From Abditibacterium sp. (lineage in GTDB: Bacteria > Armatimonadota > Abditibacteriia > Abditibacteriales > Abditibacteriaceae): 64,000 nt of DNA. Shown piece after piece: positions 19,429-24,595 of this stretch. The stretch spans positions 1 through 64,000 of the forward strand of contig JAUJNG010000010.1 of the NCBI GenBank assembly GCA_030448265.1, in the 5' to 3' direction. The stretch's first letter is position 1; each line of letters starts with the position of its first letter. The position numbers were made by a program, and so were the translations under genes. Under the pieces are notes generated by a model. That model made no database searches. It worked only from the letters and a program-made list of their open reading frames with translations, and was not told the DNA's origin.

Positions 19429-19510
19429 GAGGTGAATCAAATGTCAAAACAGGAACTGATGGAATTGGTCGCGCCGCTTTCGCCCGCAGAACGGCGCGAA
19501 CTGCGCGAAC
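19429..19510 (+). repeat. 82-bp direct repeat, copy 1 (antitoxin 5' end)
   Basis: Copies at 19429-19510 and 20134-20215 differ at two positions. Each holds the Shine-Dalgarno (GAGGTGAATCAA), the ATG and the first 23 codons of an antitoxin gene. After this the two genes diverge abruptly. Confidence 0.93.
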
Positions 19511-19674
19511 TGTTGGAGGAGGCGCCTGAGCCAATGACGGCGGAAGCCTTGAAAAACGACCCTTTCATGAAGGTGTTGGCCGAAATTGACAAGAGGCCGC
19601 CCGCCGATTTGCCGTCGGACTTTGCAATCAACCACGATTATTACCTTCATGGAGGCGAGAAGCGTGAGCCGTGA
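19441..19674 (+). CDS. antitoxin of a PIN-toxin pair
   Basis: A 77-residue acidic small protein (MSKQELMELVAPLSPAERRE ...). It lies directly before a PIN-domain gene whose GTG start overlaps its last 11 bases, the usual layout of a VapBC-type pair. ATG 19441 is chosen for the GAGGTG ribosome site 6 bases upstream, the same context as the duplicated copy at 20146. The C-terminal part (after about residue 30) presumably binds the toxin. Family name uncertain. Confidence 0.8.
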   Translation: MSKQELMELVAPLSPAERRELRELLEEAPEPMTAEALKNDPFMKVLAEIDKRPPADLPSDFAINHDYYLHGGEKREP

Positions 19675-20083
19675 CAGCGTGTTCGTTGATACCGGCGCCT
19701 GGATTTCTCTGCTTTCTAAAAACGATAGATACCGCGTTCGCGCTCTGGAAGTGATGCGGCAGTTGAGAGTGGAGAATCGTTCTTTAGTCACTTCCAGCGC
19801 CGTAGTTTTAGAAGTTGGCGATGGTCTGGCCACGCGCGGCCTTCGCCATTTCAATGCGGATTTTCGCATTTTGCTCGCTGCACCCAGAGTAGAAACCGTT
19901 TTTATTGATGCCGTGTGGCTCGATGCTGGGTGGAGATTGTTTGCCGCTCGACCAGACAAGCACTGGAGTCTCACTGACTGCCTGTCCTTCGCCATCATGC
20001 GCGAACATAATCTAAACGACGCCTTCGCCCACGACCACCACTTCGAGCAGGCCGGATTCACCGCTCTGCTTCGCCAAAATTAA
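19664..20083 (+). CDS. PIN-domain toxin (VapC-like ribonuclease)
   Basis: A 139-residue PIN-domain protein with the four conserved acidic positions: Asp in VFVDTGAWIS, Glu in VVLEVGD, Asp in WSLTDCLSFAIM and Asp in AFAHDHHFEQAGF. It is expected to be a Mg-dependent ribonuclease restrained by the upstream antitoxin. GTG 19664 is chosen because GGAGG lies about 10 bases upstream and because it overlaps the antitoxin stop. The gyrA start remnant begins 4 bases after its stop. Confidence 0.88.
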   Translation: MSRDSVFVDTGAWISLLSKNDRYRVRALEVMRQLRVENRSLVTSSAVVLEVGDGLATRGLRHFNADFRILLAAPRVETVFIDAVWLDAGWRLFAARPDKHWSLTDCLSFAIMREHNLNDAFAHDHHFEQAGFTALLRQN

Positions 20084-20086
20084 ACC

Positions 20087-20116
20087 ATGTCACTTCTCCC
20101 TCCCCCCGAACAGGAA
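20087..20116 (+). repeat. remnant copy of the gyrA 5' end
   Basis: Thirty bases encode [10 protein letters not shown] followed at once by TAA. They match 21991-22020, the first ten codons of gyrA, at 28 of 30 positions, and both differences are synonymous. It marks the right boundary of the PIN cassette just as the true gyrA start marks the right boundary of the TcmP cassette. Confidence 0.92.
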
Positions 20117-20133
20117 TAAACCAAATGTTTTTT

Positions 20134-20215
20134 GAGGTGAATCAAATGTCGAAACAGGAACTGATGGAATTGGTCGCGCCGCTTTCGCCCGCAGAGCGGC
20201 GCGAACTGCGCGAAC
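20134..20215 (+). repeat. 82-bp direct repeat, copy 2 (antitoxin 5' end)
   Basis: The second copy of the 19429-19510 repeat, with two mismatches. It forms the left boundary of the second cassette, 18 bases after the gyrA remnant. Confidence 0.93.
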
Positions 20216-20355
20216 CACTGGATGAAGCGGATCCGCTACCTTCCAAACCGATATTTCCTCTTCGCGGCACGCTGGGCGTGATGCACCAGCCTTTTGAACC
20301 CGCCGTCTCGCAGTCCGAGTGGGAGGCGTTGTGCCAAGAGGAGTTACATGATTGA
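20146..20355 (+). CDS. chimeric antitoxin-like protein without a toxin
   Basis: A 69-residue protein. The first 23 residues are those of the 19441 antitoxin; the rest (PIFPLRGTLGVMHQPFEPAV SQSEWEALCQEELHD) is unrelated and resembles the C-terminus of other small VapB/DUF2281-like antitoxins. No toxin follows. Instead its last 8 bases overlap the tcmP start, with GAGGAG as ribosome site. It could be a recombination hybrid or could now serve the TcmP pair. Confidence 0.7.
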   Translation: MSKQELMELVAPLSPAERRELREPLDEADPLPSKPIFPLRGTLGVMHQPFEPAVSQSEWEALCQEELHD

Positions 20356-21232
20356 GCAGCGTTTTGGTGGAACATGGACGCAGCGAAAGCTGGATGTCAT
20401 TCAGGATTACTTGCCTGCTTATGCCCGCATTTTCGCAAAGAATGAACGGGCACAGTTTTTAAAGACTGTTTATGTAGATGCATTTGCGGGAACCGGCTAC
20501 ATAACGCCTCCTTCTCATCAAGATGAAAATTTGAGCCTCCTTGCAGAACTCCAAGAACCAGAGGTGCAAAAAGTTTTGAAAGGCAGTGCTCAAATAGCTT
20601 TGGATATGGAACCGTGGAAATTTGACCACTACGTTTTCATAGAGAAAGAGCCTGATTATGCAAAAGAACTTCATCTTCTCAAAAACCAACACATCAATGC
20701 GGGGATTTCTATTCAAATCGAGCGAGCGGATGCGAACGTCTTTCTTCCGCAGTGGTGTTTAGAGCAAGACTGGAAAAAGACAAGGGCTGTCATCTTTCTT
20801 GATCCATTTAGCGTTGAATTAGAGTGGAGCACTTTAGAAGCAATCTCACAAGGAAAAGTAGATGTTTGGTTTTTATGGCCTATTGGGCAAGCTGTGAACA
20901 GAATGTTGACGAAGAAAGCTCTACCCCCACTCTCTTGGCAACGGCGGTTGGACACAATATTTGGGACCAGAGAATGGATAGAACGGTTTTATGCCCCAGA
21001 TCAGCCAAAACAATTAGGGCTTTTTGGTGAGAAGGAAGCGGCTCCAGTGAAGGTAGCTGGTTTTCAACAAATTGGCGAGTTCTTTCTCGAAAGATTGGGC
21101 ACCATATTCACTTATGTGGCTCCTCAGCCCCTCTATTTGACGAACTCGCGCAATAACCCGCTTTACTTGTTGTGCTTTGCAACGCATAATCTGACGGGCC
21201 TAAAGATAGCCAATGATCTTCTAACTCGCTGA
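20348..21232 (+). CDS. tcmP: three-Cys-motif partner protein TcmP
   Basis: A 294-residue protein of the TcmP family. Typical features are the N-terminal KLDVIQDYLPAYARIF, then VYVDAFAGTGY, FIEKEPDYAKELHLLK and AVIFLDPFSVELEWSTLEAI, an arrangement resembling a methyltransferase-like Rossmann fold. TcmP is named for its genetic linkage to Gp37/Gp68-type three-Cys proteins, and that partner overlaps it by one base here. The coding sequence is visibly AT-richer than its neighbours, a sign of horizontal transfer. Molecular role unknown. Confidence 0.9.
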   Translation: MIEQRFGGTWTQRKLDVIQDYLPAYARIFAKNERAQFLKTVYVDAFAGTGYITPPSHQDENLSLLAELQEPEVQKVLKGSAQIALDMEPWKFDHYVFIEKEPDYAKELHLLKNQHINAGISIQIERADANVFLPQWCLEQDWKKTRAVIFLDPFSVELEWSTLEAISQGKVDVWFLWPIGQAVNRMLTKKALPPLSWQRRLDTIFGTREWIERFYAPDQPKQLGLFGEKEAAPVKVAGFQQIGEFFLERLGTIFTYVAPQPLYLTNSRNNPLYLLCFATHNLTGLKIANDLLTR

Positions 21233-21978
21233 TGGCTCAACACTCCTCTATCGAATGGACAGACCACACTTTTAATCCGTGGTGGGGCTGCACCAAGGTT
21301 TCGGACGGCTGCAAATTTTGTTATGCCGAAGCTATTGCTAACCGCTATGGACAAAATGTGTGGGGGCCAACGGCTGCGCGCCGCACTTTCGGCGAAAATC
21401 ACTGGCGCGAGCCGTTGAAATGGAATGAGGCAGCCGAAAGAAATGGCGAGCGTGCCCGCGTCTTTTGCGCTTCGATGGCCGATGTCTTCGATGAGCGGGC
21501 GCCGGTTGAAGAACGCGAGAGACTGTGGGAATTGATTCGCCAAACGCCGCACCTTGATTGGCAAATCCTCACCAAACGCCCGCAACTTATCGCCGAAAAT
21601 CTGCCCCTCGATTGGGGCGACGGCTACGAAAACGTCTGGCTCGGCACCAGCGTGGAAGACAAGCGCGTTGTTGAACGCATCGTTCAATTGTCTGCCGTTC
21701 CCGCCGTCGTGCATTTTCTCTCTCTTGAACCTCTCATTGGCCCTCTTCCCAATTTGCCGCTCGATGATATTCAATGGGTCATCGTCGGCGGCGAGAGCGG
21801 CCCGAAGTCGCGTTTCATGTCTCCCCTCTGGGTCGAAGACATTCGGCACCAGTGCGAGGCCGCCAGCGTGCCTTTTTTCTTCAAACAGTGGGGCGGCGCC
21901 CGCAAAAAGCAAGCGGGCCGCGAACTCAATGGCCGTTTTTACAACGAGATGCCGCGAGTCGCCCAAACCATCCGTTAA
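21232..21978 (+). CDS. phage Gp37/Gp68-family three-Cys protein (DUF5131)
   Basis: A 248-residue protein beginning SSIEWTDHTFNPWWGCTKVS with the cluster Cys-x6-Cys-x2-Cys (GCTKVSDGCKFCYAE), suggestive of an iron-sulfur or zinc site as in radical-SAM-like proteins. Further motifs are VFCASMADVFD, LTKRPQ, VWLGTSVEDKR, LEPLIGP and VIVGGESGPKSR. It is the usual partner of TcmP, and the ATG overlaps the tcmP stop (TGATG). The family occurs in phages and mobile elements. Function unproven. Confidence 0.93.
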   Translation: MAQHSSIEWTDHTFNPWWGCTKVSDGCKFCYAEAIANRYGQNVWGPTAARRTFGENHWREPLKWNEAAERNGERARVFCASMADVFDERAPVEERERLWELIRQTPHLDWQILTKRPQLIAENLPLDWGDGYENVWLGTSVEDKRVVERIVQLSAVPAVVHFLSLEPLIGPLPNLPLDDIQWVIVGGESGPKSRFMSPLWVEDIRHQCEAASVPFFFKQWGGARKKQAGRELNGRFYNEMPRVAQTIR

Positions 21979-21990
21979 CTCCCTAATCTT

Positions 21991-24595
<2,605 letters not shown>

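Follow-up and report, generated by a model that had tools for sequence, protein, structure and literature searches.

Introduction

Restriction-modification systems are known to insert with long target duplication, so that about 100 bp of target sequence is present as a direct copy on either side of them (Nobusato et al. 2000; review: PMC3874152). Homology-facilitated illegitimate recombination has been described in naturally competent species and measured in the laboratory in Escherichia coli conjugation (PMC3240628), and it has been proposed for the effector-immunity arrays of the type VI secretion system (T6SS) of Vibrio cholerae (PMC5361080). In pneumococcus, merodiploids formed by transformation carry large duplications between repeats (PMC3784515). 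Here we describe the interval between gyrB and gyrA of Abditibacterium sp. (Armatimonadota; assembly GCA_030448265.1), which lies within the first 64,000 nucleotides of contig JAUJNG010000010.1 (hereafter the window) and holds two tandem cassettes, one with a toxin-antitoxin module and the other with an antitoxin and a candidate phage-defence pair, that share both of their boundaries. The interval is a variable site, and it was probably filled by horizontal transfer, with the start of gyrA serving as a homologous anchor and the opposite end being joined illegitimately.

Two tandem cassettes share their left and right boundaries

Each cassette begins with boundary A, which contains the ribosome-binding site and the first antitoxin codons (ATG at 19441 and 20146, with GAGGTG upstream). 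A previous reading of the sequence alone (the sequence-only reading) had noticed an 82-bp repeat with two mismatches at this place (19429-19510 and 20134-20215); our comparison recovers it as the core of an 86-bp repeat with 96.5% identity (E about 1e-36), beyond which a weaker similarity extends to 114 bp (89%). Each cassette ends with boundary B, a 30-bp repeat of 93% identity with two mismatches (E 3.8e-5 in a whole-genome search) that comprises gyrA codons 1-10. Its first base coincides exactly with the gyrA ATG, and its left copy is a gyrA remnant closed by TAA, as that reading had also described. All four coding mismatches in the two boundaries (4/4) locate at third positions and are synonymous, with TCA/TCG and GAA/GAG in boundary A and TCA/TCC and CAG/CAA in boundary B. 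No further copy of either boundary occurs in the whole 4.95-Mb genome. At the joint 20116/20117, similarity between the antitoxin leaders alone is visible, the presumed homologous side being the gyrA start. The reading frame of the remnant has ten codons, among them three prolines in a row, lies directly before the second antitoxin, and could encode a leader peptide.

The genes proposed as cargo by the sequence-only reading agree with the Pfam and TIGR matches (Table 1). In module 1, the small antitoxin gene AT1, which has no Pfam match, overlaps the gene of a PIN-domain toxin, as in a VapBC-like type II toxin-antitoxin system. In module 2, the antitoxin AT2 is followed by TcmP and a DUF5131 three-Cys protein, which are adjacent and match both PADLOC models of PDC-M41, a phage-defence pair of candidate status only; the two genes are also adjacent in most TcmP loci examined in the phylum. 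The G+C content around TcmP is 43-47%, compared with 56-65% in the gyrase genes. The Pfam and TIGR profile searches revealed no transposase or integrase family among the cargo at the gyrA site.

The gyrB-gyrA interval varies among relatives

The family is represented in our genome collection by two relatives only, one of the same genus (G001) and one of the same family (G002). In G001, the gyrB-gyrA interval is empty, with a gap of about 250 bp and one gyrA start, although its GyrA is 78% identical, which is too distant to prove the exact pre-insertion state. In G002, a single cassette of an antitoxin and a PIN gene ends just before the gyrA ATG, and its PIN, judged by eye, differs in type from that of module 1. 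Members of the class further off have gaps of about 90-140 bp. The comparison of relatives that the sequence-only reading called for thus yields one genome without a cassette and one with other, single cargo. No trace of a G002-type PIN remnant was found in the window.

The sequence-only reading took AT2 for a chimera, and this part is less likely to hold. The antitoxin at the gyrB-gyrA interval of G002 resembles AT2 along both its N-module and its C-module (36% over 74 amino acids), and it is the sole match of AT2 in that genome. On the other hand, the AT1 C-module and its PIN type recur elsewhere in the Abditibacterium genome behind other, unrelated N-modules. Because an AT2-like antitoxin occupies the equivalent place in G002 and the AT1 C-module and PIN recur behind other N-modules, AT1 is the better candidate for a chimera, and we conclude with moderate confidence that AT2 represents the older resident type. 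The possibility that AT2 and TcmP form a standing unit was rejected, since none of the eight TcmP loci examined in the phylum has an overlapping upstream antitoxin.

Similar scars occur at other core genes

Direct repeats around cargo first came to light near relatives of AT1, and 800 kb of the same genome were then sampled. Scars of this kind, with hosts and cargo identified by Pfam, were found beyond gyrA at the 5' ends of carB and a TIM-barrel isomerase gene and at the 3' ends of PPDK, fusA, greA and a HIT gene. Specifically, the first 27 codons of carB are copied (85 bp, 98%) and followed by an antitoxin-like gene, a PemK/MazF toxin (2.1e-6) and intact carB, while three pieces copied from the last part of PPDK lie downstream of it, separated by antitoxin-like/HNH pairs and an AIPR gene (2e-44). 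Copies of the last 273 bp of fusA enclose genes for a GIY-YIG nuclease and for a ClpP-like protease; a 98-bp repeat of an antitoxin 5' end is present here too and abuts the fusA remnant directly, giving the same tandem layout as at gyrA. The last 150 bp of greA flank a MerR-type gene, and a single remnant combines the isomerase 5' end with the HIT 3' end. The direct copies at carB, PPDK, fusA and greA are 85-273 bp long, and no transposase or integrase was found in the Pfam-tested cargo of these other sites. Similar cases occur elsewhere in the phylum: in G022 the 3' end of an isomerase gene is involved and the cargo is a PIN pair, in G016 the repeated stretch is a DUF433 5' end, and in G002 a KAP NTPase lies amid repeated ends of an AraC-like gene.

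Three other repeats were set aside. A gene for a 23S-rRNA-intervening-sequence protein on contig C13 (45340-45892) lies between direct and inverted A+T-rich repeats beside an ABC transporter gene and seems to represent a separate type of small mobile unit; the pilin repeats on contig C40 are likewise of another kind. The pair at 155053-155262 on contig C4 is an artefact, an unresolved assembly overlap in which exactly 55 identical bp flank a gap of 100 N.

The copies differ mainly at third codon positions

In the pooled data from nine host-gene copies, third codon positions account for 58 of the 82 mismatches (p 5e-12 against 1/3, and 2e-6 against 0.45, a rough value assuming drift in the remnant but not in the gene), with mismatches treated as independent. 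Among the changed codons, 58 are synonymous and 14 nonsynonymous, compared with 24% synonymous for random single changes. The nine copies exclude secA, which is gapped, two repeats of helix-turn-helix genes on contig C23 and the cases from other genomes. Remnants of local duplication would gather random changes; the bias toward third positions therefore argues that the copies diverged mostly as working alleles, and this favours import from relatives over local duplication followed by decay.

Features of the interval and its neighbourhood

Upstream of the two cassettes, gyrB is split by an intein with HNH homology, and the GyrB proteins of four relatives of the same class (G001-G004) align without it. 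Between gyrB and module 1 lies a DUF433 antitoxin-like gene whose probable partner toxin, assigned to its family by eye and with no Pfam match, is apparently broken by a frameshift near 19213. The segment 18772-19411 looks like a third, decayed cassette in the interval. Elsewhere in the window, a 44-bp direct repeat (61234-61276 and 63534-63576; 86%) with copies 2.3 kb apart surrounds two open reading frames (ORFs) of about 350 amino acids.

Table 1. Coordinates of features in and around the gyrB-gyrA interval (positions in the window)
Feature	Position	Strand	Basis or remark
gyrB	15277-18768	+	Pfam DNA_gyraseB, Toprim, Intein_splicing 3.4e-18, HNH_3 2.8e-4; left neighbour
DUF433 antitoxin-like gene	18772-19023	+	Pfam PF04255 2.8e-13; starts 4 bp past gyrB
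Probable DUF433 partner toxin	19029-19411	+	Two ORFs in separate frames (19029-19244, 19280-19411)
Left boundary A, copy 1	19425-19510	+	Ribosome-binding site, first codons of AT1
AT1 antitoxin	19441-19674	+	Shared N-module; C-module paired elsewhere in genome with this PIN type
PIN-domain toxin, module 1	19649-20083	+	PF01850 2.6e-10
Right boundary B, copy 1	20087-20119	+	Remnant gyrA codons 1-10 (20087-20116) and stop TAA
Joint of gyrA remnant and AT2 leader	20116-20130	.	Presumed illegitimate end
Left boundary A, copy 2	20130-20215	+	Repeat comparison
AT2 antitoxin	20146-20355	+	PIN partner absent; final codons overlap TcmP start
TcmP, three-Cys-motif partner protein (PDC-M41A)	20348-21232	+	TIGR04474 6.1e-48; PADLOC PDLC04635 9e-101
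DUF5131 three-Cys protein (PDC-M41B)	21232-21978	+	PF07505 1.7e-83; PADLOC PDLC04639 4.4e-81
gyrA, intact	21991-24597	+	868-aa ORF; GyrA matches in 59/61 genomes
Right boundary B, copy 2	21991-22020	+	Start of intact gyrA

Discussion

The sequence-only reading had proposed a cargo site to which a second unit was added by duplication or recombination with restoration of gyrA. The variability among relatives and the equivalent array at fusA support this proposal, and because the copies differ synonymously, recombination with a diverged donor is favoured over duplication. We propose that incoming DNA from a relative would have carried a small cassette and, behind it, the beginning of the relative's own gyrA. 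This gyrA segment would act as the homologous anchor and recombine into the resident gyrA, whereas the opposite end, near the antitoxin leader of the cassette, would join without extended homology, here just past gyrA codon 10. This would add a cassette and leave gyrA intact, with ten gyrA codons remaining as a remnant behind the older cassette. A common antitoxin N-module may stand at the start of both cassettes because they are alleles of one locus, and in module 2 the candidate defence pair would have taken the place of the PIN toxin of AT2. In this scheme we infer a donor origin, an anchoring on one side only and an order in which the modules arrived, and any defence function of the cargo is likewise putative.

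A local tandem duplication of the unit from the antitoxin through the PIN gene to the gyrA start, with the second PIN later replaced by TcmP-DUF5131, would account for both shared boundaries by one event and fits the spacing and order; additionally, gyrA alone offers two mismatches, the synonymous argument coming from the other loci. We nevertheless regard it as unlikely, since it requires a further precise exchange reaching from the start codon of the toxin to the start of gyrA, and since the remnant, which would have been free of selection, nevertheless shows synonymous differences; the pooled nine-copy test rejects random drift. An artefact assembled from mixed metagenome strains seems improbable to us. 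The draft assembly has 43 contigs and contains N gaps, and strain mixing would give allele-like divergence, yet the window is without any N, including at the joint, and similar structures occur in separate assemblies (G016, G022 and G002). The exact 55-bp overlap on contig C4 suggests that this is the word length of the assembly graph, and the longest exact shared words are 44 bp for boundary A, 20 bp for boundary B, 51 bp for carB, 35 bp for fusA and 56 bp for greA, of which only the last exceeds it. Because the exact words of both boundaries are shorter than the overlap and the window has no N, a graph loop behind the tandem arrangement is unlikely.

The 3' ends of core genes are familiar attachment sites, and the scars could in principle be remnants of integrative elements whose integrase restores the gene end, as gene ends are indeed restored here. 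This is very improbable, given that no integrase is found among the inspected cargo ORFs, that 5' ends are used too, and that the copies, 30-273 bp long and 2-13% divergent, display no common core. That the 30-bp stretch derives from the cassettes, each supplying its own start for the downstream gene, would be in line with the lack of conservation of GyrA residues 1-12 in relatives. We give this explanation hardly any weight, as the copied stretches at carB, fusA, greA and PPDK are conserved coding sequence of the core genes.

Several observations weigh against horizontal transfer with the gyrA start as anchor. No donor allele was seen in any close strain or genome. The sampled contigs were picked for antitoxin-related matches, and spaced direct repeats, 28 per 800 kb against 5/240, 3/160, 4/200 and 2/200 kb in relatives, show a modest excess only, most of them being supplied by contig C23. 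PPDK copy c and greA contain several nonsynonymous changes, which makes it possible that some copies are local duplicates in decay or simply old; in G022, a genome of another family, the copies have decayed with an indel, whereas those of G016 have not. ComEC and DprA homologues are present in the genome, but they are widespread and do not demonstrate competence. As a tentative extension, it is possible that the ends of essential genes are common landing anchors in this lineage, and that toxin-antitoxin and defence genes circulate among its strains without a recombinase and stack with shared antitoxin leaders.

The question of how free-standing toxin-antitoxin and defence cassettes spread with neither a transposase nor an integrase is still open. 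The scars record single arrivals beside core genes, and their signature, a core-gene end repeated around cargo with synonymous differences, lends itself to searches of any genome. The arrays in tandem at gyrA and fusA point to a route by which such genes may accumulate without breaking essential neighbours. If essential-gene ends do serve as landing anchors, a cassette would be tied to a gene that the cell cannot lose.

The kind of insertion is already known as long target duplication; the cargo and the setting are new, and we found no report in the open-access literature of toxin-antitoxin modules inserted with duplication of a core-gene end. Pneumococcal merodiploids likewise arise by tandem duplication around an essential gene through uptake of partly repeated DNA, whereas the units here are short and carry different cargo. 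Homology-facilitated illegitimate recombination, with one homologous anchor and one illegitimate joint, is the very process proposed here, although it has been measured in the laboratory and here would be read from scars in an uncultured genome. The V. cholerae arrays share with this locus a conserved anchor, exchanged downstream cargo and older pieces pushed along into an array. Unlike those arrays, this one involves no secretion system, its anchors would be an essential core gene and the N-module of the antitoxin, and the pieces left behind are ends of core genes instead of immunity genes. Restriction-modification systems inserted with long target duplication resemble it as addiction-type cassettes placed between direct target copies without a known mobile element. 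The gyrA insert is flanked by direct copies in the same manner, with a copy of 30 bp that is shorter than the typical 100 bp. In contrast to the restriction-modification case, most of the cargo here falls into toxin-antitoxin, nuclease and candidate defence genes. The target is a core-gene end, and the gene itself remains intact; the synonymous differences between copies look like those of another strain, and the cassettes stack with both boundaries shared.
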